IMG/VR virus record: IMGVR_UViG_3300033149_004356
Location: 1-41,608 of that record
Direction: 5' to 3' (one strand)
DNA from: a virus
Length of the DNA stretch: 41,608 nucleotides
Shown here: in pieces, positions 1,841 to 40,269 of the stretch
How positions within the stretch are numbered: position 1 is the stretch's first letter
Layout of the letters: each line of letters starts with the position of its first letter
Program-made: the position numbers and the translations under genes
The notes under the pieces: model-generated
Seen by the model: the letters and a program-made list of their open reading frames with translations, nothing else
Told to the model about the DNA's origin: nothing
Database searches by the model: none

Positions 1841-2115
1841 TTAAAGCCTCCCCACCTATACTTACATATTCTTTCAATTGAGATAAGCGTAATACTGAGT
1901 TCAATAGCACTTACTCCTAATGATATAAAAAGATTAGAAAGCATATACCCAATCATCATACATAAGATTGCAATTGTTTTAATGTAATAATGTGTGAGAG
2001 AAATCCCATCTGTCTGTTTTATCCTGAGTATCTTTTGTAACTGTCTAACACAAGACCACAAAAAACTTGTAATACCAATAGTAAAGAGTAAATCTATTAG
2101 TAAATTTAACTGCAT
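1819..2115 (-). CDS. SemiSWEET / PQ-loop-like membrane protein
   Basis: The 98-residue protein has three predicted membrane helices (about residues 5-22, 42-62 and 66-84). The stretch RQLQKILRIKQTDGISLT after helix 1 closely resembles the PQ-loop signature of SemiSWEET/MtN3 proteins, with R-Q in place of P-Q. Three helices in under 100 residues is exactly the SemiSWEET size. SemiSWEETs dimerise to pass sugars across the membrane. The basic C-terminus is expected to be cytosolic. The start overlaps the end of the polymerase gene by 10 bases. Sugar transport is inference from family resemblance. The altered PQ motif leaves room for another role such as membrane disturbance. Confidence 0.6.
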   Translation of the reverse strand: MQLNLLIDLLFTIGITSFLWSCVRQLQKILRIKQTDGISLTHYYIKTIAILCMMIGYMLSNLFISLGVSAIELSITLISIERICKYRWGGFKWRKLLK

Positions 2116-3920
2116 ACTATTTCCTCTAATTCTTTTTTAACTTTTTTATCTTGATTACCATGAGCCTCAGCCCAAGTTCTACCAAATTTTATATCAATTT
2201 CGATTGGAACTTTTAAGTCTTTTCCAGCCTTCAGCATTGATGACTTTATTATATCATAACAAGATTTGGAATACTTAATTGGACATGATACTAATACTTC
2301 ATCGTGAACAGTCAAAATCATCTTAGCTCCAAATGATTTTAGTTTTTTGTGCATTTTAATCATAGCATATTTTATAATATCAGCTGATGAGCCTTGTATA
2401 ATACTATTTATAGCACTTCGTATCTCAGCTCCTTGCTCATAGTCGTCTTTATGATAAAAGTGCTTAGAACATCTCCGTTTGCGTCCTGAAAGCGTTTGTA
2501 CATATCCAAGATTTCTAAATTGTTTCTCAGCATCTTCCCAAAATTGCTTAATTCCTGGATATGTTTCAAAATATTTATCAATATATCTTTGAGCATCTTC
2601 TTCTGAAACTTTAATTTGTTTTGCAAGTGTTTTATTTCTCATACCATATACGAGACCAAAATTAATAGTTTTTGCTTTCTGTCTCTCTATTCCAAGAGCA
2701 TTAGCTGTTTGTTGATGAATGTCTTTATTATTTATATAAGCATCGACAAGATTTAAGTCTTGACTGAAATGTGCCAATACTCTAAGTTCAATTTGCGAAT
2801 AGTCAGCACCAATTAAAATATGTCCATCTTCAGGTATAATCACTTTTCTTATTTCAAGGTCTTTGTCGTCTCGTGGAATATTTTGCATATTAGGCCTACT
2901 ACTGGAAAATCTTCCACTTACTGTTCCTGCTTGATTAAAAGCAGCAAAAATCTTACCCTTACGTTTTCCCGTTTTTTCACAAATTTCCCAATTTGTAGGG
3001 GTGAGAGCTGGAATAAATGTTGTAAGAATTTTATTATATTTTCTATATTCTAATAATAATTTAGCAGCTCCATTTATTACGGCATACTTTTCTAATACTT
3101 CTTTGTCAACTGAAGGAGCTCCAGTCTTTTCAGACTTTTTAATAATAGGCATATTTTGTTTTTCAATAAAATATTCTTTTAATTGTTTTGAACTATTAAA
3201 ATTAATATCACCCATTAATATTTTTAATCTTGAATTTGCACTATTTACTTTATCAGAACAAAGTTTACTTATTTTAAATACTTCATCTACATCGATAGTA
3301 ATTCCATTGATGTGCATATCAGCTACTACTTGCAACAATGGTCTTTCCATTTCAATATAAACTTTGTGACTTGGAAAATCTTTATGTAGCTCGCTACAAA
3401 GAAGATTATAAAGTTTTAAAGTATATTTAGCATCATCACAAGCATATTTTACTTTATCTTCTGACTCAAGGTCTGCAAAGTCAATTCTTTTCTTACCAGA
3501 ACCAAGTAACTCTTTGAGTTCAGTCATATTATAATTAAAATATTGTTTAGTTAATTTTTTAAGACCATGCATCATGTTTTCGTTTACAAGATTTGCTATG
3601 ATTACTGTGTCTTCACAACAAAAGTCTTCTGGAAATTCTACTCCATATTGTTTTAATACAGGAATATCAAAAGAAGAATTATGAAAAATTACATTACTGC
3701 ACTCAAACATAATCCAGTTTAAAAGGTTAAGTGCTTTATTTCTTGTCATATTTTTTAAAAAATTATCTTTTACAGGAATATAAAAAACGTTTTTATCAAA
3801 AGCAAAACTAAAACCTACCATAGTTTTGTCGGTCAAAGATACCGTTTCAGTATCTACAGCAACTGTTCTCGCTTTTTTCAAGTTATCGAGTAACTTATTT
3901 TCATAATCTATTATATACAT
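2106..3920 (-). CDS. polA: Family A DNA polymerase with 3'-5' exonuclease
   Basis: The 604-residue protein begins with a DEDD proofreading domain (D23-T-E25 in AVDTETVSL; NSSFDIPVL; YACDDAKYTLKLY) and continues with the family A palm and fingers. Motif A is ADYSQIELRVLAHFS, motif B RQKAKTINFGLVYGM and motif C LTVHDEVLVSC. There is no 5' nuclease domain, as is usual for phage enzymes. All catalytic acidic residues are present, so it should be active. It is the main replicative polymerase, and the SSB-like protein lies just upstream. The ATG at 3920 has AAAGAGG upstream. A hairpin separates it from the SSB gene. Confidence 0.97.
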   Translation of the reverse strand: MYIIDYENKLLDNLKKARTVAVDTETVSLTDKTMVGFSFAFDKNVFYIPVKDNFLKNMTRNKALNLLNWIMFECSNVIFHNSSFDIPVLKQYGVEFPEDFCCEDTVIIANLVNENMMHGLKKLTKQYFNYNMTELKELLGSGKKRIDFADLESEDKVKYACDDAKYTLKLYNLLCSELHKDFPSHKVYIEMERPLLQVVADMHINGITIDVDEVFKISKLCSDKVNSANSRLKILMGDINFNSSKQLKEYFIEKQNMPIIKKSEKTGAPSVDKEVLEKYAVINGAAKLLLEYRKYNKILTTFIPALTPTNWEICEKTGKRKGKIFAAFNQAGTVSGRFSSSRPNMQNIPRDDKDLEIRKVIIPEDGHILIGADYSQIELRVLAHFSQDLNLVDAYINNKDIHQQTANALGIERQKAKTINFGLVYGMRNKTLAKQIKVSEEDAQRYIDKYFETYPGIKQFWEDAEKQFRNLGYVQTLSGRKRRCSKHFYHKDDYEQGAEIRSAINSIIQGSSADIIKYAMIKMHKKLKSFGAKMILTVHDEVLVSCPIKYSKSCYDIIKSSMLKAGKDLKVPIEIDIKFGRTWAEAHGNQDKKVKKELEEIVCS

Positions 3921-6137: not shown

Positions 6138-6431
6138 TTATAACCTCAATATTCCATTTTTTCTATTCTTTTTAATTGCTTTATACATTTGATGGCTAAC
6201 CCTTATTTTACCCATTAGAACAAACTTTTCCCAACTTGGACATGATATTACATTTACAAGGTCGTTGCATTTATTACATCTATAAAGATTCTTTATAAGT
6301 TTTCGTACTTTTTTAGGCGCCCCAAATTTCTTTACCTCATATTTGTTAAGAATTATTTCTTTTATTTGTGTTTTTTCAAAAGTAAGGTTCCCGCCACAAC
6401 CTATATGTGGTATTATTTCATAGTTTGTCAT
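6138..6431 (-). CDS. Zinc-finger protein (97 aa)
   Basis: It has one clear knuckle, CNKC (about residue 53), plus Cys12 and a later Cys in ISCPSWEKF, enough for one zinc site. The C-terminal half is basic and helical. Its start overlaps the ThyX stop by 14 bases, so it is probably coupled to ThyX. No named family. Confidence 0.6.
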   Translation of the reverse strand: MTNYEIIPHIGCGGNLTFEKTQIKEIILNKYEVKKFGAPKKVRKLIKNLYRCNKCNDLVNVISCPSWEKFVLMGKIRVSHQMYKAIKKNRKNGILRL

Positions 6432-7044
6432 TCTTTATCTCCTCTGTTATTTGATTATATAAATCTTCAAAAAGTTCAGGCATTAAATTATATAATTCTA
6501 GTAATAATGTTCTTGCCCAGTCTCTTATCTCTGGTGTATTATTATTTGTCATCCTTAAACCTATAATAAGTCTCCATTCTCTTATATTTGTTGTAATATA
6601 TATATCTGTAAGACAAGCATTTGGAAGTATCTCTCTAGCTATATAATGAGGTATACCATTTTTTACAAAATTAATAAATATTTTATTTATTTGTTTCATT
6701 AATCTTTCATATTTTTCTTCATTGTCTTCCCAGGCATCTCCATAAATTTCCAAATCTTTATATTTGAAGTTCTTATGATTAACGAAATGCTGTGATTTAA
6801 CTGAATAAGATACAAGTCTATGCCTTGTTAATTGTGCTAAAAATGAACGACTTACATCTTTAACATAGATAGATACACAAATATGTTCTAAAACAGACCC
6901 ATGTCCTTTTTTAATTAAAAATTTAACTAATTTAGTCATCTGCTTTTTAGTATCAAGAGCATCACGGACACCATAACAATTTCTTGCTGCTTTATAAATC
7001 ATCTCAAGATACTTTTTTGGATAGTGTTCAATACTTATTTCCAT
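6418..7044 (-). CDS. thyX: Flavin-dependent thymidylate synthase
   Basis: A 208-residue protein with the ThyX signature RHR-x7-S at residues 74-84 (RHRLVSYSVKS), preceded by the conserved HGSVLEH (48-54), in which HxSxxEH contributes to FAD and dUMP binding. A C-terminal ITTNIREWRLIIGLRM matches the usual NxREWRxxxxLR block. ThyX makes dTMP from dUMP with methylene-tetrahydrofolate, FAD and NADPH. Length is typical (200-250). The common NxxSxRY ending is SVKSQHF here, a mild variant. It supplies thymidine for a very AT-rich genome. Confidence 0.95.
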   Translation of the reverse strand: MEISIEHYPKKYLEMIYKAARNCYGVRDALDTKKQMTKLVKFLIKKGHGSVLEHICVSIYVKDVSRSFLAQLTRHRLVSYSVKSQHFVNHKNFKYKDLEIYGDAWEDNEEKYERLMKQINKIFINFVKNGIPHYIAREILPNACLTDIYITTNIREWRLIIGLRMTNNNTPEIRDWARTLLLELYNLMPELFEDLYNQITEEIKNDKL

Positions 7045-7747: not shown

Positions 7748-8668
7748 TTACACCTCTTTTACAGCATGTCGTTTACATATATCATTTTTATATTTTTTTG
7801 GTATTTTATCTATCCATTTTTGTATCTGTTTATCAGTACATTTTATCCTTGCAATATGCCCCAAGAGTTGTTTAACTAGTCTCCCATTGTCTATAATGTT
7901 GAAACTTCCACACCATAAAGGGAATACTGAAAAATCTAAATCAGTTCCTTGTAAATCAGCTTTTCGAAAATCAGCTTTTGGTAAATTAGCTTCTCGTAAA
8001 TCAGCTTCTCGTAAATCAGCTTCTCGTAAATCAGCTCTTCGTAAATCAGCTTTTCGTAAATCAGCTCCCTGTAAATCAGCTCTTCGTAAATCAGCTCCCT
8101 GTAAATCAACTCTCTGTAAATTGACCCTTTGTAAATTAGCTTCTCGTAAATTGACTTTTTGTAAATTAGCTTCTCGTAAATTGACTTTTTGTAAATTAGC
8201 CTCCTGTAAATCAGCTCCCTGTAAATCAGCTTTTCGTAAATCAGCTCTTCGTAAATTAGTTTCCTGTAAATTAGCTTCCCATAAATCAACTCTCTGTAAA
8301 TTGACCCTTTGTAAATTAGCTTCTCGTAAATTGACTTTTTGTAAATTAGCTCCCTGTAAACCAGCTCCCTGTAAATCAGCTTCTCGTAAATCAGCTCTTC
8401 GTAAATTAGTTTCCTGTAAATTAGCTTCTCGTAAATTAGCTTTTCGTAAATTAATTTCTCGTAAATTAGCTCTCTGTAAATTAACTTCTCGTAAATTAGC
8501 TTCTTGTAAATCAGCTCCCCATAAATCAGCTTTTTGTAAATCAGCTCCCTGTAAATTGGCTTCTCGTAAATCAGCTCCCCATAAATTAGCTTCTCGTAAA
8601 TCAGCTCCCTGTAAATCAGCTCCTCGTAAATCAGCTTTAGGTTTTATTATATAATTATTAACTTTCAT
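7748..8668 (-). CDS. Long pentapeptide-repeat protein
   Basis: A 306-residue protein. Residues 12 to about 240 consist of roughly 45 A(D/N)Lxx repeats (ADLRGADLQGADLRE...), which fold as a right-handed quadrilateral beta-helix shaped like a DNA rod. The last 60 residues form a separate domain (PLWCGSFNIIDNG and later DKQIQKWIDKIPKKY). Some members of the family (Qnr, MfpA) mimic DNA and bind gyrase. Most phage members are unexplained. The 15-bp DNA period makes the gene prone to slip, so repeat number may vary between strains. It overlaps the SWIM gene by 11 bases. Confidence 0.9.
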   Translation of the reverse strand: MKVNNYIIKPKADLRGADLQGADLREANLWGADLREANLQGADLQKADLWGADLQEANLREVNLQRANLREINLRKANLREANLQETNLRRADLREADLQGAGLQGANLQKVNLREANLQRVNLQRVDLWEANLQETNLRRADLRKADLQGADLQEANLQKVNLREANLQKVNLREANLQRVNLQRVDLQGADLRRADLQGADLRKADLRRADLREADLREADLREANLPKADFRKADLQGTDLDFSVFPLWCGSFNIIDNGRLVKQLLGHIARIKCTDKQIQKWIDKIPKKYKNDICKRHAVKEV

Positions 8669-13902: not shown

Positions 13903-14382
13903 CTAATTTAAATAAAGTGTATAATTTTTAGATTTTAAGTCAGAATTGATTGTGTTGTGATTGACATGAAAGTCGTAGATATATGCTAAAAGTTTTTGAA
14001 TCTTGCGGCAAGAGAGAAGTCCATACTGGCTAATAATCTTTGCTTCTGCTTTCCATCTTGCATCTCTATTGCTCCAATTATAATGAGATTTTTTCCAGTC
14101 TATCGCTATTCTTTTTTCTAAAATATTGTAGAGTGGCTTATATTTAAAAATGTATTCATGCTCTAAATCAATTCTTTTTTTAATATTTGGTTCTTCAATA
14201 TATTCACACGCAAACCACGGTATTTGACTATGTTGTCTTGTTCTACGTTTTATATCATCAGATTGACCTACATATAGAATTGTTTTTAAGTCTTTTTTTA
14301 ATAATAAATATACACCAGAAATAGGTTCTGGATTTCTAAAAAATATTGTATGTGAGTAATGTGTTTTTATTTTCTTCTCCAT
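13903..14382 (-). CDS. GIY-YIG endonuclease with a terminase-like DNA-binding domain
   Basis: Residues 22-90 form a GIY-YIG nuclease: SGVYLLL, then ILYVGQSDDIKRRTRQH with Tyr, Gly and Arg in place, an E in DLEHEY and PLYNI. The C-terminal 45 residues form a second domain, AEAKIISQYG, SCRKIQKLL and NHNTINSDLK, nearly the same as residues 10-50 of the putative small terminase at 20343-20810. Free-standing GIY-YIG proteins are often homing endonucleases. It is stand-alone here, with no intron evident. The ATG shares a base with the previous stop (TAATG). The shared domain suggests it cuts near the terminase target or arose by fusion with it. Confidence 0.88.
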   Translation of the reverse strand: MEKKIKTHYSHTIFFRNPEPISGVYLLLKKDLKTILYVGQSDDIKRRTRQHSQIPWFACEYIEEPNIKKRIDLEHEYIFKYKPLYNILEKRIAIDWKKSHYNWSNRDARWKAEAKIISQYGLLSCRKIQKLLAYIYDFHVNHNTINSDLKSKNYTLYLN

Positions 14383-15601: not shown

Positions 15602-16528
15602 TTAAAATATTCCTTCACTGATATATCTATATCCATTGTCAGGTAATATTACTACAATCCAGCCATAGTCCATTTTCTTAGCCTCTTTTATAGCTGAACA
15701 CATTGCTGCACCACTAGACATACCACAGAAAATACCCTCTTTTTGTGCTAAACGCTTTGCCATTAAAAAAGAATTGTCATCATCAGCTATATCTCGTTGA
15801 TTTATAAAAGATTTGTCGTATATTTTAGGAATCTTGCTAAATCTAAGGTTTTTTAGTCCTTGTATTTTGCTATTTTTTCTAGGAAACACTGCTATAGTTT
15901 TTGTCTTTATTTGCTCTCCTTTATGGCAATCTTTAATTACATTATAGTTATAGTCAAACCAAGTCTTGCAACCACGGATAGTTCCAGTAGTTCCACAAGA
16001 TGCAACAAGTACATTTGGATTTGGTGGTTTAGTAGTATTTAAGTATTGATGAAGTTGTCTACTTATTTCAGGGCCAGTATGCAAAAAGTGTGTTTTCCAG
16101 TTACTTGGATTGTCAAATTGATTAGGTACATAAATATATTTATTAAATTTTAATTTTTCTACATATTTTATAGCATCATCAGTATTTCCATCAACCAAGA
16201 CAATAGAGGCTCCAAATGCTTGACAAAGTTTTACTCTTTCTTCTGACACACTTTTAGGCATAACTAAAAGACACCTATATTTTAAAGCAGCACAAACCAT
16301 TGCAAGACCTATTCCAGTATTACCACTTGTAGCTTCTGTAACCTGCATATTTGGTACAAGTTCACCGTTTTTAATTGCGTCAGTTATCATTTGATAGGCA
16401 ACTCTATCTTTAATACTTCCACCGGGATTTACTCCTTCAACTTTAGCAAATATCTTGACTGACTTTGATTGCCAAATATGTTTTAATTCTACTAATGGAG
16501 TATTTCCTATTGACTTTAGTATTGACAT
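15602..16528 (-). CDS. cysK: Cysteine synthase / O-acetylserine sulfhydrylase
   Basis: A 308-residue fold-type II PLP enzyme of normal family length. IGNTPLVEL lies at residues 7-15, the PLP lysine in GGSIKDR is K40, the phosphate-binding or substrate loop is EATSGNTGIG (65-74), the Gly-rich loop is SCGTTGTIRG, and CGMSSGAA is near the C-terminus. Family members make L-cysteine from O-acetylserine and sulfide, and some use O-phosphoserine (archaeal type), which cannot be decided here. Viral cysteine synthases are uncommon. The many Cys-rich virion and zinc-ribbon proteins here give a plausible reason to carry one. The start couples to the zinc-ribbon gene by TAATG. Confidence 0.95.
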   Translation of the reverse strand: MSILKSIGNTPLVELKHIWQSKSVKIFAKVEGVNPGGSIKDRVAYQMITDAIKNGELVPNMQVTEATSGNTGIGLAMVCAALKYRCLLVMPKSVSEERVKLCQAFGASIVLVDGNTDDAIKYVEKLKFNKYIYVPNQFDNPSNWKTHFLHTGPEISRQLHQYLNTTKPPNPNVLVASCGTTGTIRGCKTWFDYNYNVIKDCHKGEQIKTKTIAVFPRKNSKIQGLKNLRFSKIPKIYDKSFINQRDIADDDNSFLMAKRLAQKEGIFCGMSSGAAMCSAIKEAKKMDYGWIVVILPDNGYRYISEGIF

Positions 16529-17002: not shown

Positions 17003-17233
17003 TCATTCAATTTGATTCTCAGTAAAAGGGTTATATTCATTATTTGCGAAGTCTTTTTTTAGTTTCTCTACAAATTTCTTCTTATCTTCTTTTACCTTCT
17101 GTTCAGCAGCTTCTTTTTTTACTTTTTTTCGTTCAAGTCTTGTATTATAACAATTATAACATAGTATCTTTCTTCGATACCACTTGAACTTATTATATTC
17201 TATTTTTTTTCCACAATTAGAGCATTTTCCCAT
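17003..17233 (-). CDS. Zinc-ribbon coiled-coil protein (76 aa)
   Basis: MGKCSNCGKK and CYNCYN form a zinc ribbon in the first 30 residues. The rest is a highly charged Lys/Glu helix. It couples to the primase-helicase by TAATG, suggesting a replication accessory role (inference). Confidence 0.65.
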   Translation of the reverse strand: MGKCSNCGKKIEYNKFKWYRRKILCYNCYNTRLERKKVKKEAAEQKVKEDKKKFVEKLKKDFANNEYNPFTENQIE

Positions 17234-19434
17234 TAGTTCACCTTTTTTAATCTATATCTTACATATACTTTTTTATTATTTAATGAAATTAATTGAGGAC
17301 TTGGTAGTCTAAAATATCTGAATGCTCTTGACAGAGCCTCGTTACTATCAACTGGTATATCATTAGCATGACACCATTTTATATATTCTTTTCTTATATC
17401 ATTAACTTTAATATAATTATTTAAATTATTATCTCTTTCATATTTAGTTCTAACAAAGTATTTTGTATTTTCTTGATACATTAAATATTTTTCTTTTTTA
17501 TCTTGTAAATAGGTAAATCTTTTTTTAGTTAACAATCTTTTTAATCCTTCAATTGACCAAACTAATAATCCTTCCATTGATTTTTTAGTTATTAATTTAT
17601 CTATTAAATCAATATCCTGTTCTTTAGTATACCTAAATTTTTTGAGAAATGGAAGTATATATTGTCTATCATACCAACCGTCAGTCTTATCATTTGAAGA
17701 TGGAATTGAATTACAAGCAGTAATTATTTTTGCATAGTTATTAAAATCAAAACCATCCTTTCCTTTAAACTCAGCCTCAATTCTTTCTCCGGCAGTTAAT
17801 CTTTTTAACATATCGGTATTTTCTAATACATATCCAGATAACTCACCACAAGAGTTTAACAGTTTACCATATAATTGGGCAGTTACGAAACGATTACTTA
17901 TTAAAGAATTTATTGATTTATTTGCAATATTATTTGTTCCAAGTAAGTTCTCAAGAATTCTAAGCCAAACCGTTTTACCATTTCCACCTGTACCATATAA
18001 ATAAAACAGTCCATGATAATTATATTTAGTATAAAGACAATAACCAAATAATTCTTGAGTTAAATTAATATATTTTTTTTTATTAAATGTAGTATTAAAA
18101 TATTTAATCATTTCTTTTGTTAATTTTGCTTTAGAATTATAATTCCATGGAATTTTATATAAGAAATAATATTTTGGAGAATGTTTTTCAAGACGTTTAG
18201 TAAATAAATTATAAATACCATTATTAAGATTTATTAAATGTGGTTTTTCTTGAATTTCATCTCTTTTAATAGTTTTTCTTGTTTTGATATAATTAACTAT
18301 TTCATTTTCATAATATGTAGACCAAGGAATATTTTCAGTTTTAAATAATTCTTTAATTAATACTCTTAAAATACTTTCTCCATTTAATTTATAATAACCA
18401 TCTTCATAAGCATAAATATGAGTAGCTCTTCCAGTAGCATCTTCAATTGCAATAAAAGTTTTTTTACTATCTATATAATTTGATATTCCAAATACATTTA
18501 ATTTTTCTTTTTTGCCTTTTTTTATAAATAGTTTAAAGTCATTTGGGGATTCTGGACCTGTAGGTCTTTGTTTATCGCCAGAGTCATAGTTATTATCTGG
18601 ATAACCATATTTTTCTATACCTATTTTTTTTATTGACTTAAATTCTTTTTTTATTTGGTCCTTTGTAGGACAATAATCATCTATTTTTACAATACCTTCT
18701 AGCATTGCTATTAATGAAACAGCATCTCCTCCAACCTCACATCTGAAACAATACCAAGTATTTTTTTCAACATCTATTTCAAAATTTTGACCAGTTTCAC
18801 TTCCATGTATAGGATGAGCACCTCTCCACTTTATATCATCTCTGGATTTAAGACCAGGACAATACTTTATAAGTTTTGATATATCCCAATTCATACCACC
18901 AATAGTATTTATTTTAAATTTAGATATATCTTTTTCTTCGGTAAAACCGTCAAGGATTTCTATAAGGTTTTTTTTAGAAATTGTCTCTATTTCAGTATTA
19001 TTAAGAATTGTATATTTATTTCCAGATGGATGAATACTACCAGGACCTATACATTGATTTCCTTTTGCCTGAATTTCACCATAGTGCCTCCCTTTTTTGG
19101 TCAACCGTATTCTTTTTTTAATCTCTGGACAAAAATAGTAAAGATGCCAACCACCATTTCCAGTCTGTACTGTAAATGTCTTTGGAAATTTAGTAAATAC
19201 CAAATTGGCTACACTTTTATCTTCAATATTTTCGATATCTACTATAATAAGATTTCCATAGCCACAAACAATTCCATAACTCTCGGCTTGTTTAAGATAG
19301 ATTTTAAATTCATTTTCATTATATCTATAATTGTTATCTTCTGCCCAACTTTCTTCTATTGGTCTCTTAGTTCCGCTATCTATTTTAACAAATCTAATCT
19401 TTTTACTTTTAAGTTGATTTGGCAATTCTATCAT
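17233..19434 (-). CDS. Primase-helicase (prim-pol + SF3 helicase, D5-like)
   Basis: A 733-residue protein. Residues 1-150 are a prim-pol (AEP) domain: GNLIIVDIEN carries the catalytic acidic pair and GNGGWHLYYF the sxH-like motif. Around residues 175-240 a zinc-binding primase module has CPG, HPIHG and WYCFRCEVGGDAVSL. The C-terminal half is a superfamily 3 helicase with a D5-type N-domain: Walker A LYGTGGNGKT (about residue 487), then SCGELSGY and the sensor-like ITACNSIPSS. It should prime and unwind DNA at replication forks as a hexamer. The DxE/DxD pair and the Walker lysine are present. Confidence 0.93.
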   Translation of the reverse strand: MIELPNQLKSKKIRFVKIDSGTKRPIEESWAEDNNYRYNENEFKIYLKQAESYGIVCGYGNLIIVDIENIEDKSVANLVFTKFPKTFTVQTGNGGWHLYYFCPEIKKRIRLTKKGRHYGEIQAKGNQCIGPGSIHPSGNKYTILNNTEIETISKKNLIEILDGFTEEKDISKFKINTIGGMNWDISKLIKYCPGLKSRDDIKWRGAHPIHGSETGQNFEIDVEKNTWYCFRCEVGGDAVSLIAMLEGIVKIDDYCPTKDQIKKEFKSIKKIGIEKYGYPDNNYDSGDKQRPTGPESPNDFKLFIKKGKKEKLNVFGISNYIDSKKTFIAIEDATGRATHIYAYEDGYYKLNGESILRVLIKELFKTENIPWSTYYENEIVNYIKTRKTIKRDEIQEKPHLINLNNGIYNLFTKRLEKHSPKYYFLYKIPWNYNSKAKLTKEMIKYFNTTFNKKKYINLTQELFGYCLYTKYNYHGLFYLYGTGGNGKTVWLRILENLLGTNNIANKSINSLISNRFVTAQLYGKLLNSCGELSGYVLENTDMLKRLTAGERIEAEFKGKDGFDFNNYAKIITACNSIPSSNDKTDGWYDRQYILPFLKKFRYTKEQDIDLIDKLITKKSMEGLLVWSIEGLKRLLTKKRFTYLQDKKEKYLMYQENTKYFVRTKYERDNNLNNYIKVNDIRKEYIKWCHANDIPVDSNEALSRAFRYFRLPSPQLISLNNKKVYVRYRLKKVN

Positions 19435-20905: not shown

Positions 20906-20939
20906 CTTTAAATATTATTAAAAACATAATTATAAGTGG
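20906..20939 (+). promoter_or_regulatory. Rightward promoter, archaeal-like
   Basis: GAAAA, then CTTTAAATA (20906-20914) look like BRE plus TATA. TTATAAGTGG follows at 20930-20939, the mirror image of the leftward motif. The leader ORF of the terminase begins 30 bases later. The shared motif may be the initiator or an operator that controls both directions. Confidence 0.6.
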
Positions 20940-20968
20940 AATAATATAAAAATAAAAAAGGAGTGGTC

Positions 20969-22283
20969 ATGATAGACCGGGATTTGGTGGGTTAAGATTA
21001 CTAATTTAGTATTATCATTAGCGAGAGAATTTTTACCGCAACAATTAGAAACAATGTGGGCTGTAAAGAAAAATAGATACGTTCTATATTCTGGAGCAGT
21101 TCGTGCTGGTAAAACTCTTCTTGCTGCACATATTGCTATTAGGACTTGTATAGAAAATCCTAATTGTCAGGGCTTTATTGGCTCTTTAACTACACCTCAA
21201 CTTACAGATGTTGTATTTAAAGTATTTCAACAAGAACTTAAATTTTACCAAGATTTGCTTGACAAAAATAATATCTCATTACAAATTGCTAAAATGAAAT
21301 TTAGTAAAGGTGATATGAAAGCTATATTTTACAATGGTTCAGTAATTTACTTTAAATCTTGTGATGATGAAACTAAAATTAGAGGATATACATTAGATTT
21401 CGCAATTTTAGATGAACCAATTGAAATAGATGAAACTATATTTAAACAATTAATGAATCGTATCTCAGGCGGACATATAAATAACCCATTTATATTATTA
21501 ACAACTAATCCTGGAAGTCAGTTACATTGGATTTATAAATATTTCTTTAGAGAAGCGACTGAAGAGCATTATACTGTAGAAACAACTACTTACGATAATG
21601 TGTTACTCCCCCAATATAAAAAATATATTAAAGACTTAGAACAAAATTTAGATGAGGATTGGATAAGGAGATTTCTTAATGGAAAATGGGGAGCTTACTC
21701 TGGACAAATATATAAAAATTTTTCCTTAGACCGTCATACAGGGACTTACGCCAACTTTAACGATGTCAAGTATTTCGTTGCAGGAGTTGATTGGGGTAAT
21801 AGAAATCCATCATGTATCTTGGTGCTTGGAATCACAAAAGATAAAGAAGTAATAGTAGTAAAGGAATGGTATAGAAAGGGTGCAACTACGCCTCAAGTGG
21901 CAAAAAAATTACAGGAATATCATAAAATTTATAGTTTTAAAAAAGTATATATTGATGCTTCTCAACCAGATTTAATATTACAAACTTCAGATTTACAAGT
22001 TCCTGCTGAAAAATCAGAAAGAAAAGTAGAAGCAGGGATTGCCAAAATAAGAGGACTATTTAAACAAAATAAAATTCATATAGATATTAATTGTACAAAT
22101 TTAATAAGAGAACTACAAGCATATAGATATGAAAAAGATAAATTAAATAAAAACCCTACAGAAACACCGGTAAAACAAGATGACCATGCTCCAGATGCTC
22201 TTAGATATGGGCTAACTAACTATCGAGGCTTTAGAAGAGATAATTTACTTGGCTATGTAAAACGGGATTTGTGGGATTTTTAG
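20969..22283 (+). CDS. terL: Terminase large subunit, with recoded or non-AUG start
   Basis: The packaging motor. Walker A is SGAVRAGKT, Walker B FAILDEP, and the C-terminal RNase H-like nuclease has AGVDWG, VYIDAS and DDHAPDALRYG. The main frame is clearly coding upstream of its first ATG (21054): LAREFLPQQLETMWAV carries the usual Q-motif region. That frame has no ATG, GTG or TTG back to its stop at 20973. An ATG at 20969 with AAGGAG starts an 8-codon frame ending GGT TAA. A +1 shift there, or restart at ATT (20997) one base after the TAA, reaches the main frame and gives about 428-437 residues. The same layout occurs at the tail fibre gene. Confidence 0.92.
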
Positions 22284-27931: not shown

Positions 27932-28004
27932 GCCTGCATAATTCAATAGGAAAGAACGTCTGCCCTGTAAGCAGAGAATCCAAGTTCGAATCTTGGTGCA
28001 GGCT
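27932..28004 (+). tRNA. tRNA-Thr (anticodon TGT)
   Basis: A 73-nt cloverleaf. The acceptor stem GCCTGCA/TGCAGGC is perfect. The D arm has a three-pair stem and GG in the loop. The anticodon stem is TCTGC/GCAGA with loop CCTGTAA. There is a 4-nt variable loop, and the T arm is CCAAG/CTTGG with loop TTCGAAT. A15-U48 and U8 are present. Oddities: position 33 is C instead of U, and no CCA is encoded. The discriminator is U, as in archaeal tRNA-Thr rather than the A usual in bacteria. It decodes ACA, a codon favoured by AT-rich genes. Confidence 0.9.
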
Positions 28005-29064: not shown

Positions 29065-30012
29065 ATGTCAATTTATACAAGAGGAGAAACTTATGTTCAT
29101 AGAATATTAATTATTGATAGAACTGATACTATAGTTTATCCATCAGACTGTACTATGTATATTTATGATTCTTGTGGTAGTCTTGTTAATGCTGGGGGAA
29201 CCTCTATGGCTACAAGTGCTGGAGACAGTTATTTTCAAGGTAAATATGCAATCCCAAATGATATGAAATATGGAGAGTATAATATTCAAGTAATTACTAC
29301 TGATGCTGAAGGAGATAGAGCCATATTTGATGATAAATTGTATATCTTTCCATGGAATATAGTACATGATGTTAGAAAATACTCAGGCATAACCTCAAAA
29401 AAATCTATTAGTGACCATGATATATCAGCTCAAATATGGGAAGCATATCAAGAAGCATTAGATGATGTATTTGAATTTTGGCATGATGATATACCAAATT
29501 GTAATCCAGATACAGGAGAATGGTTTAATGGTAGTAATACAGTCTTTGAAACAGCTCATGGGCCTATTGCAGATAAAGATGGTGATGGAGTAGTTCAAGG
29601 ATGGGGAGAATCCTCATGTGGAACAGATATTTGGGGCTGGTGGAAAGATGAAGATGGAGATTGCCACAAATTGAAAATAACCGTAAATGAGGTCCGTTGT
29701 GGAAAAATTACAATAACGCAAACAAATGGTATGGCAATACCAAGCAGTGCAAAATGGGTAAAAATATCCTATTATACTGAATGGGAAACATATAACGAAA
29801 GAAAATTTAGAATGGCTGTAGCATATCTTGCTGCTTATAAATCTATTCAAGCTTTCAAAGCTTTAGATAAAGCTACAATAGCTGATTTAGATTCAAATAA
29901 ATATGATATAGAAATATTAAAAGACAAATCGAGAATGTGGAAACAATATCAAAGAGCAATAAAGAAAGTAACAAAACCAATAATTGATAGTGGAATGATT
30001 CCAGGAGAATGA
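29065..30012 (+). CDS. Head-tail connector/adaptor protein (putative)
   Basis: A 315-residue protein. Residues 1-100 form an Ig-like beta domain, and residues 105-145 and 250-315 helices. Between them stands DKDGDGVVQGWG, an EF-hand-like calcium loop. The helical part with a beta insertion and the position after the capsid gene fit gp6/gp15-type connectors. It is Cys-containing like its neighbours. No direct family match can be made by eye. Confidence 0.5.
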   Translation: MSIYTRGETYVHRILIIDRTDTIVYPSDCTMYIYDSCGSLVNAGGTSMATSAGDSYFQGKYAIPNDMKYGEYNIQVITTDAEGDRAIFDDKLYIFPWNIVHDVRKYSGITSKKSISDHDISAQIWEAYQEALDDVFEFWHDDIPNCNPDTGEWFNGSNTVFETAHGPIADKDGDGVVQGWGESSCGTDIWGWWKDEDGDCHKLKITVNEVRCGKITITQTNGMAIPSSAKWVKISYYTEWETYNERKFRMAVAYLAAYKSIQAFKALDKATIADLDSNKYDIEILKDKSRMWKQYQRAIKKVTKPIIDSGMIPGE

Positions 30013-30506
30013 ATATGACTTACTCTAGCTTTGACCCACGTAAAGCATTTAGAGAAAACCTTGGTTCATTAAAATATGATGAGGATGCTAACCCTTATTA
30101 TTGTTTTGTAATAAAGGATAAGTATAACTCAGATATAAAAATACCTATCTATCTTAGTGAAGAAATTAAATCTGAAGATGAACCAAACTTCCCATACATT
30201 GTAATGTATATTCCTGAAGGTGGCACCACTTATGAGCCACAAGATATAGGTGCTGCTACAAGGAAAATGGAAACATTCATAGAAGTACACATCTATTTCA
30301 CAGATTTAGATAATATAGATAGGACAGAATTTGCTAAAAAAATCAAAGATGAATTACACGACAAAGTTAGAAGTAATCAATCTACAACTTCAGGTATTGA
30401 TTTCATGAATATAGAAGATGATGGATTGGAAAAAGAAACTGACGGAAGACAAATATACTTTCATTATTTAGCTACTTTATATTGTCTATATTACGACCTT
30501 TGTTAA
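30009..30506 (+). CDS. Tail terminator / neck protein (putative)
   Basis: A 165-residue protein whose ATG overlaps the stop upstream (ATGA). The alternating pattern PYIVMYIPEGG, METFIEVHIYFTD, RTEFAKKIKDELHDKV and IYFHYLATLYC resembles the alpha/beta fold of gpU-type tail terminators. It precedes the tail tube gene, as expected. Confidence 0.5.
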   Translation: MNMTYSSFDPRKAFRENLGSLKYDEDANPYYCFVIKDKYNSDIKIPIYLSEEIKSEDEPNFPYIVMYIPEGGTTYEPQDIGAATRKMETFIEVHIYFTDLDNIDRTEFAKKIKDELHDKVRSNQSTTSGIDFMNIEDDGLEKETDGRQIYFHYLATLYCLYYDLC

Positions 30507-31652: not shown

Positions 31653-31681
31653 AAATATAAAAAATATAAAGAGGTAAAAAT

Positions 31682-32044
31682 ATGAAATATACCGTAAAAT
31701 GTGTAAATAATGGTGAACCTTTCAATATGCCAGCTTGGACTATAGAAAAACATGAAAAAGCATTAGCTCGACTTGCCGCTGACCAAAAAAGAGAAAAATG
31801 GAGTGAAGAAGAAGCCAGCAAGAAATTTAAATATTATATAATATATGAGACTATGCTTGAACTTGACCCAAATTGTGATTTTGAGGAACTAAAAAATTTT
31901 TTAAAGCACCCTATTACATTAACACAATTATTTAATGCAGTGTATGAAGCTGGAAAAGAAAATATCTACTATGTCGAAAATTTTCGCAAGGGTCGAAAGA
32001 CCCAAAAATGCAGAAAGTCAAAATCTACTGGGAAGAAGAATTAA
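31682..32044 (+). CDS. Tail assembly chaperone, G-type
   Basis: A 120-residue protein ending in the zero frame. Helical (EKHEKALARLAADQKREKWS, then FEELKNFLKHP). Position between tail tube and tape measure, plus the frameshift signal near its end, identify it as the first of the two tail chaperones known from lambda gpG. Confidence 0.8.
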   Translation: MKYTVKCVNNGEPFNMPAWTIEKHEKALARLAADQKREKWSEEEASKKFKYYIIYETMLELDPNCDFEELKNFLKHPITLTQLFNAVYEAGKENIYYVENFRKGRKTQKCRKSKSTGKKN

Positions 32045-32256
32045 AAGCATTTCAAGAATCAATTAATATATTGTATCTTGAAAAAGGTGGACTTAACGAA
32101 ATACTCTCTATGAACTATTGGAGATTCAGGAGTATTCTTGCAACGCTACAAAAAAAGAGAAGAATTGAAAGTGGAAAACCCTATATAGAAAAAGGTTTAC
32201 CTCAATCATCAAAAGATATGATTGAAAAAAGAAAAAAACAGAGACCAAGGAATTAA
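31682..32256 (+). CDS. Tail assembly chaperone G-T fusion by -1 frameshift
   Basis: Ribosomes slipping back one base at A-AAT-TTT (31978-31984) leave the first frame after 101 codons and continue in the second frame to 32256, giving about 191 residues. The second frame (open from 31948) adds FSQGSKDPKMQKVKIYWEEE and a basic C-terminus. An internal ATG at 32008 could also start it. The fusion normally recruits tail tube protein to the tape measure. Confidence 0.85.
31978..32003 (+). promoter_or_regulatory. Programmed -1 frameshift signal
   Basis: Slippery heptamer A-AAT-TTT in the correct register, a 5-base spacer (CGCAA), then a stem GGGTC-GAAA-GACCC (31990-32003) with a GNRA loop. All three parts match the standard rule. 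Confidence 0.88.
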
Positions 32257-38129: not shown

Positions 38130-38162
38130 GAAAATGATTAAATATATTTAGAGGAATATTAT

Positions 38163-39093
38163 ATGAAAATAAAAATTTTAAATAGGGGGTGTTAATATCA
38201 CTTGGTATGATACACAGACTGCAACTGACTGTATTACCTTTACTGAATGGAATAATATGGTCACTTATATACAACATAGTGCATGTACTGACTTTACAAT
38301 ATATGGTACATGTCCTAATACAAATCCGGTATTCAAATTTGGTGGCAACAATGACATTGAATTTGATGAAGACCGTGCAATAATGATTGATGATGATGAA
38401 ACTTACATTGGTCATGGAGCTGGAGATTCGATTAATGGCGGAGTTAATAATACTCTTATTGGTCATGATGCTGGAAATGCACTAACTACTGGAGATAATA
38501 ATACTTTTATAGGACAAGGTGCAGGGCAATCATCAGAGCCAACATTGACTGGGTGTGTCCTTATTGGTAAAGAAGCCGGTCTTAATGCAGCAACAAATAA
38601 TACTTTATACATAAATAATAATAATTCAGAATATCCACTAATTTACGGTGAATTTGCTAATGACACAGTTAAATTTGGAAATAACAGTAATGCTTGGTTT
38701 TTTAAATTTACAGTAAATGGTGTTACTTCAGAATTATATGGTGGTCAGGCAAGTGATAAACGCCTTAAACTTAGTGCAAATGACACAGATGGCGCTGACC
38801 AAGCTCATATAGTACTTAAAGGAACTGGTGGCAATTTAGAGTTAATACATGGTAATGGTGACGCTGTAACAATTCATTCACATGATACACAAAATGTAAT
38901 GAAGTTTTGGTATAACGGTGGAATCCCAACAATAGAAACAACTTTATCAAATGGCGACTTACAACTATTGCCAAATGGAAGTGGGAATATAAGATTCGGC
39001 ACATATGCTGCAAAAGGTGCAGAGGCATTCGATGGTTTTATTACTATTAAAGATGCGGCAGGTAATACAAGAAAATTAATGACTTGTGCTTAA
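38163..39093 (+). CDS. Tail fibre / receptor-binding protein, with recoded or non-AUG start
   Basis: About 299-309 residues. The first 60 residues (NITWYDTQTATDCITFTEWN) form a base. Then NNTLIGHDAGNAL and NNTFIGQGAGQSS give the left-handed beta-roll of trimeric fibres and YadA-like heads, and the end GSGNIRFGTYAAKG plus IKDAAGNTRKLMTCA is a common fibre tip. The frame is coding well upstream of its first ATG (38257) but has no ATG, GTG or TTG. A 10-codon leader (ATG 38163, GAGG upstream) ends TGT TAA. A +1 shift there, or restart at ATC (38197) one base after TAA, opens the main frame, as at the terminase. Confidence 0.82.
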
Positions 39094-40038: not shown

Positions 40039-40269
40039 TCATTTTTTTAACGCACTCCAAATTCCTATAACTAAGAATAATGGTATAATAAATAACTCCA
40101 AATTTGCCTCCCCCAATGAATCAACAGTTACTAAAACCTTATGACCTGGATTGATGTAAGCTAATACCCATAATAAATAAAATAATACACCATAGGCGAT
40201 TAAGGTACCTCTACCAACCCATTTAAAGAAAAATTCAAAATCTGTATCCATATCCATAACCATACCCAT
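40039..40269 (-). CDS. Membrane protein (76 aa)
   Basis: Two membrane helices (LIAYGVLFYLLWVLAYI and ELFIIPLFLVIGIWSAL). The start region overlaps the GY-repeat gene in another frame, which gives the odd MGMVMDMDTD opening. A start at a later Met is possible. It is the last gene of the leftward unit. Confidence 0.55.
   Translation of the reverse strand: MGMVMDMDTDFEFFFKWVGRGTLIAYGVLFYLLWVLAYINPGHKVLVTVDSLGEANLELFIIPLFLVIGIWSALKK

Follow-up and report, generated by a model that had tools for sequence, protein, structure and literature searches.

A tail-fibre-like gene that may start at AUC, behind a probable scar of an endonuclease gene, in a probably archaeal virus

We propose that the tail-fibre-like gene of a tailed virus is translated from an AUC codon, positioned by an SD sequence within the end of a ten-codon leader ORF, and that this leader is the scar of an internally deleted HNH endonuclease gene. 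Comparison of sequences leads us to a probability of about 0.55 for the two parts holding jointly. The DNA analysed, called the window here, is IMG/VR virus record IMGVR_UViG_3300033149_004356, positions 1-41,608, a single contig (also labelled W or G000), and it carries a tailed-virus gene set that includes terminase, portal and tape measure genes.

The fibre gene (38197..39093, plus strand; PHROG tail spike match weak, E = 7.7e-4) occupies a frame open from 38182 to 39093, in which the first ATG, GTG or TTG is the ATG at 38257; 298 codons of it run uninterrupted. Ahead of it lies a ten-codon ORF, MKIKILNRGC-stop (38163..38195, +), whose ATG at 38163 follows an SD, AGAGG (38150..38154, +), at the good spacing of 8 nt; translation of this leader is putative. 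Its last codons are TGT TAA (TAA at 38193-38195), and a single base, T at 38196, separates the stop from ATC ACT in the fibre frame, where ATC (38197..38199, +) is the predicted start codon. Five bases before ATC stands GGGGGTG (38185..38191, +), the candidate internal SD, and the 6 nt between GGGGGT and ATC equal the spacing of several SD-ATG pairs of the same virus (compared by eye). The first-pass annotation, which had reported this leader with its upstream GAGG and TGT TAA end, and the ATC ACT one base later with GGGGGTG ahead of it, was right base for base. A single-sequence RNA fold of the leader region (z = -1.1) was not used as evidence.

Homologous fibres place the start at the same codon. 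ATG stands at the position of the window's ATC in G003, G005, G017 and L243, in each case behind an ordinary SD and with the leader absent, whereas G006, L238 and L239 have a variant N-terminus with ATG three codons earlier. Residues encoded ahead of 38257 are kept (ITWYDTQTATDCITFTEWNNM in the window, MAWYNIQTASDCITPTEWNNM in G003, with 81% identity over 68 aa). Since the homology reaches exactly the codon at which those four relatives have ATG, we predict with fair confidence that translation starts at AUC 38197, as the first-pass annotation had supposed; because residues before 38257 are conserved, a start at that ATG is very unlikely. Here, then, a non-AUG codon occupies a conserved protein start position, and the AUC itself is not conserved. 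One further relative, L242, in a 73.9-kb contig (G019), has a comparable form: it reads AATCTAATTACATGGTACGAA, with ATT ACA TGG for the window's ATC ACT TGG, and has an in-frame stop a few codons upstream of ATT with no ATG, GTG or TTG between. ATY-ACN-TGG is thus found in two fibres, against ATG-GCA-TGG in four others. The fibre N-terminus had no relative in phage records.

A similar arrangement precedes the terminase large subunit gene, terL (20997..22283, +). Its frame is open from 20976 and has its first ATG at 21054; an eight-codon ORF, MIDRDLVG-stop (20969..20995, +), ends with TAA at 20993-20995, followed by G and then by ATT ACT from 20997. This ORF is not conserved. What is kept is a 5′ element (20959..20991, +) made of AGGAG, a hairpin GGTC/GACC (20965-20968 with 20975-20978) whose loop holds the ATG of the short ORF, GGG and GGTGGG. 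Alignment scans covered 67 and 77 terL relatives, mostly distant, with sequence contexts printed for 25 and 9 loci. The element lies directly before terL in 15 loci (W, G001-G006, G008, G010, G011, L248, L251, L252, L253 and L261), with the consensus AGGAG or close to it, hairpin, GGG (GGT once), 3-6 nt, GGNGG; G009 carries the same element as G008, and further locus labels bearing it are L138-L142, L144, L146, L147 and L150. Among the printed relatives, those lacking it are L254/G007, L262, L264, L273, L148, L149, L151-L155, L157-L159 and the distant L161-L163.

Paired changes in the stem are good evidence that the element forms a hairpin as RNA (or single strand). Pairing holds at 36 of 40 outer stem positions across the first ten elements, compared with 20.6 in shuffles and 25.4 when halves were swapped (0 of 20000 reach the observed value). 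Adding four more elements, with L251 and L252, which share one element, counted once, and allowing trimmed ends gives 50/56, compared with 34.5 and 36.7 (again 0/20000). Because GG runs are kept while loops vary, the element may also be a putative G-quadruplex, possibly two-tier with the hairpin in its first loop. It matched no curated Rfam 15 model. A strict pattern scan of 13 contigs returned seven matches, all upstream of terL and at most one per contig, so that the element is not a repeated module; a looser pattern applied to 236 loci recovered all ten elements then known and single matches in 11 other loci, all of them among loci drawn from a separate and overly loose pattern scan of the collection. 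The single-sequence fold of the terL leader (z = -2.2) covers the AUU, differs from the conserved hairpin and was not used as evidence. A second group of terL genes with plain ATG (L148, L149, L151-L155, L157) has another structured-looking leader, in which GGATA...TATCC is followed by a conserved ACAGACAACA-like stretch and after that by a palindrome, CCTTGCAAGG or CTCGAG, beside the SD.

Behind the element, the codon aligned with the window's ATT is ATT in eight loci (W, G002, G003, G005, G006, G008, L251, L252), ATC in G004, ATA in L261 (placed by eye against the ATG of L262), GTG in G001, TTG in L248 and ATG in G010 and G011; AUU, AUC or AUA thus stands at the aligned start in 10 of 15. 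By eye, it is the 12th residue back from a conserved Phe in W, G001, G002, G004, G006, L251 and L252. The probability of at least one ATT or ATC in five in-frame codons devoid of ordinary starts is 0.20, and finding one in all seven of the first set then has a probability of about 1e-5, a figure computed post hoc. A non-AUG codon at the conserved terL start has exceptions, L253 being the clear one, with ACT ACT ACT at the aligned place and a hairpin loop that holds an in-frame ATG. The loop also holds one in L251 and L252, where a further ATG follows the ATT by three codons; an in-frame ATG or GTG lies within or before the element in G002, G003, G005, G006, G008 and L261, and a GTG farther upstream in G004. 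Because the window alone offers no canonical start anywhere in the open frame ahead of 21054, we regard AUU as the probable terL start there and as plausible across the clade.

Among other explanations of the fibre site, the one that survives best, though we think it improbable, is a programmed frameshift. In prfB, an SD-like AGGGGG precedes the stop codon and the two frames stand in +1 relation. A +1 shift at NGU UAA N would likewise fuse the leader peptide to the product and make AUY an ordinary Ile codon. Both window leaders are indeed +1 to their gene and both end in GT TAA, AGGGGG precedes the fibre stop, and the in-frame loop ATG of L251-L253 would permit an N-terminal extension of terL in those loci. 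The leader frames are not conserved, however, the fibre leader being absent from other homologues and the terL leader ORF not being kept; the overlapping ORF of L242 (described below) would need a -1 shift; and the AUC codon is where homologous fibres begin.

Slightly less probable is an error of sequencing or assembly in the G run, such that the leader is truly in frame with the fibre, or a broken gene with the fibre unexpressed. The record is a single contig, a run of five G adjoins the site and no second copy was found (0 stretches). Relative to ATG GCA TGG, though, the window has substitutions and a net gain of 34 nt from ATG to TGG, which is not one homopolymer indel; the same ATY-ACN-TGG form occurs independently in L242, and the frame stays open for the 298 codons given above.

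It had also been suggested in the first-pass annotation that a single virus-specific start signal for late genes (G-rich, GTTAA, N, ATY, ACT) serves both fibre and terminase. The pattern as described is present at both sites, with stop and start codon 1 nt apart at each. Two copies of the 12-mer GTTAANATYACT are present in the window where 0.13 are expected, and one of 100 shuffles reached this number, for a pattern defined from these very sites; ATY-ACN recurs in terL of G002, G008, L251 and L252 and in the L242 fibre. Taken by itself, the likeness of TAA-N-ATY carries little weight, because an out-of-frame stop at the offsets seen accompanies 1462 of 3209 (45.6%) in-frame ATT, ATC or ATA codons in long open frames of these contigs. 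The window offers two sites only, and homologous fibres use ATG. Close fibre homologues (G003, G005, G017) lack the leader, while relatives of terL such as G002, G003 and L248 have no leader ORF; among the terL relatives TAA-N is not retained, whereas a hairpin missing from the fibre is. For these reasons the two sites appear to have different histories and their resemblance to be mainly coincidence; a shared control is thus not borne out, and we consider it quite improbable.

The origin that we propose for the fibre leader draws on two relatives in which an endonuclease ORF runs into a virion gene. At the L242 fibre, the homologous site, a 49-codon ORF ending NGITLCKKCHRKLH... opens with an ATG overlapping the TGA of the preceding gene and closes with a TAA overlapping the ATT of the fibre. 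It is an HNH remnant: its Pfam match falls just below the cut-off, a longer open stretch matches a PHROGs HNH family (E = 1.3e-4), and an alignment places it on the opening residues and the closing section of a 216-aa HNH ORF that lies on the same contig, at a distance of about 1.6 kb. In G009, the orthologue of the virion gene at window 30009-30506 lacks any canonical start among the first 80 codons of its open frame. It resumes at an ATA, behind AGGGGGT, and this ATA overlaps the stop codon (TAG) of a 170-aa ORF that matches endonuclease VII in PHROGs (E = 1.2e-16). The endonuclease ORF opens immediately after the preceding gene, at the place where one would expect the recipient to have its own start. 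The G009 and window junctions are alike (AGGGGGT, 6 nt and ATA; AGGGGGT, 6 nt and ATC), with an alignment score of 27 against a shuffle mean of 12.9 and 0/2000 shuffles reaching it, for a pair chosen post hoc. Several HNH-type ORFs occur in the contig of L242, including L329 (G019:26000-34000), and in L335 of the same contig the tail of an endonuclease ORF holds an SD and a normal ATG for the next frame, a milder outcome.

Placed in order, a whole endonuclease ORF in G009, half of one in L242 and ten codons in the window, where no HNH family match was found, would fit a single history; insert-free relatives at the same site are G003, G005, G017 and L243. In G003, AGAGG and 8 nt precede the ATG at the homologous place, and the same AGAGG and 8 nt precede the leader ATG of the window, which is why we take AGAGG to be probably the old SD of the fibre gene. 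An HNH homing-endonuclease gene would have inserted behind the old ribosome-binding site and ATG of the fibre and taken both over, the tail of the insert contributing an SD together with a stop codon and an AUH codon for restart; internal deletion of the endonuclease gene would then have left the ten-codon leader. The fibre would be made from AUC 38197, either by direct initiation at the codon positioned by GGGGGTG or by restart of ribosomes that end the leader at the UAA one base before. The leader is thus probably a scar of this kind. Ten codons are too few to prove an endonuclease origin, and the leader could instead be an unrelated insert or a duplication of the ribosome-binding site; a stop as near to such a codon as here is also frequent by chance, as given above, and the genes in L242 and G009 may themselves be in decay. 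Endonuclease ORFs placed at the start of a gene, as in these two loci, are a common mark of mobile introns, but splicing of the leader ATG to the fibre body, which would make a non-AUG start unneeded, is very improbable, as the insert is only about 37 nt and no group I or II intron was found in the window, nor any Rfam intron in the L242 and G009 regions (E up to 1).

An automated screen for further non-AUG genes was noisy, with antisense shadows and modal-start errors. On inspection of its printed lists only the window's terL and fibre, the G004 terL and the G009 gene appeared genuine; L242 was found separately. A candidate at 40149 in G001, with AGGGGGT then ATA, proved spurious.

Coupled restart, a weak start codon and endonuclease insertion are each of a known kind, of which the window would hold a variant. 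Free-standing endonucleases of T4-like phages (HNH and GIY-YIG; mobE, segA-G) are intron-less ORFs between virion or metabolic genes; they overlap a neighbour's stop, as with UAAUGA at mobE, and this suggests that translation is coupled (PMC2988022). The overlap of an intron-less endonuclease ORF with a neighbouring gene is the likeness; the difference is that here the recipient gene behind the endonuclease would restart, at AUU, AUA or AUC, and the window keeps only a ten-codon mini-ORF. Termination-reinitiation, with stop and start within a few bases and the SD inside the upstream ORF, is established in archaea and bacteria (PMC6728339), whereas the restart codon here would not be AUG, GUG or UUG, the recognised archaeal starts (PMC7531240), and the ORF ahead of it is a leader of ten codons. 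Conserved non-canonical start codons have also been found to limit translation, as with GTC in Streptomyces sigR (PMC5472188). The present case resembles this one in having a non-canonical codon and differs in concerning a virus, probably of an archaeon, in which the fibre AUC is not conserved. The same likeness and differences hold for E. coli infC, whose conserved AUU start limits translation. To our knowledge, archaea lack bacterial IF3. Among the matches listed in the openly accessible literature, most subscription journals lying outside it, we found no account of AUU start codons in phages or archaea, of non-AUG starts in bacteriophages, of terminase genes with a non-canonical start, nor of HNH genes with one.

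The host is probably an archaeon, judged from promoter form only. A candidate archaeal-type TATA box, CTTTAAATA (20906..20914, +), lies before terL, and related boxes occur in several contigs. A box of the CTTTAWATA type, the form of archaeal promoters, stands about 20-40 nt ahead of the start of the gene divergent from terL in 7/10 printed upstream regions (by eye), and in several contigs terL itself is preceded by a box of similar form. No cellular relative of TerL or of the PALP protein was found in the collection of genome contigs, and none of the portal or of a 439-aa virion protein in phage records.

A broader reading is more tentative, and we would put the odds somewhat against it: in a clade of probably archaeal tailed viruses, the late operon would begin with a G-rich, structured 5′ element not described before, possibly a G-quadruplex of two tiers; terL would start at AUU, AUC or AUA, keeping packaging-motor translation low or gated; and AUH restarts would be tolerated after endonuclease insertions, pointing to relaxed start selection in the host. 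If these codons do start virion genes, gene callers misplace or miss such 5′ ends, and start selection in archaea would be less strict than the rule of AUG, GUG and UUG. The sites in L242 and G009 suggest a route, open to testing, along which selfish endonuclease genes could seize the start of a gene yet leave it able to restart. The terL element is itself a compact, uncatalogued RNA candidate, at a position from which production of the packaging motor could be regulated.

Elsewhere in the window, early genes on the minus strand are family A DNA polymerase (2106-3920), ThyX (6418-7044), a pentapeptide-repeat protein (7748-8668), a GIY-YIG protein (13903-14382), a PALP enzyme (15602-16528) and a Prim-Pol/D5 primase-helicase (17233-19434). 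The late region includes a tRNA-Thr (TGT) gene (27932-28004, +); a Thr codon, ACN, follows 5/8 of the terL ATT sites and both AUH fibre sites, which is probably coincidence. Ahead of the tape measure gene, overlapping frames at 31670-32041 and 31948-32253 (+), of which both are kept in relatives and the second lacks an early start, have the usual layout of a tail-assembly-chaperone frameshift, as read from the sequence.
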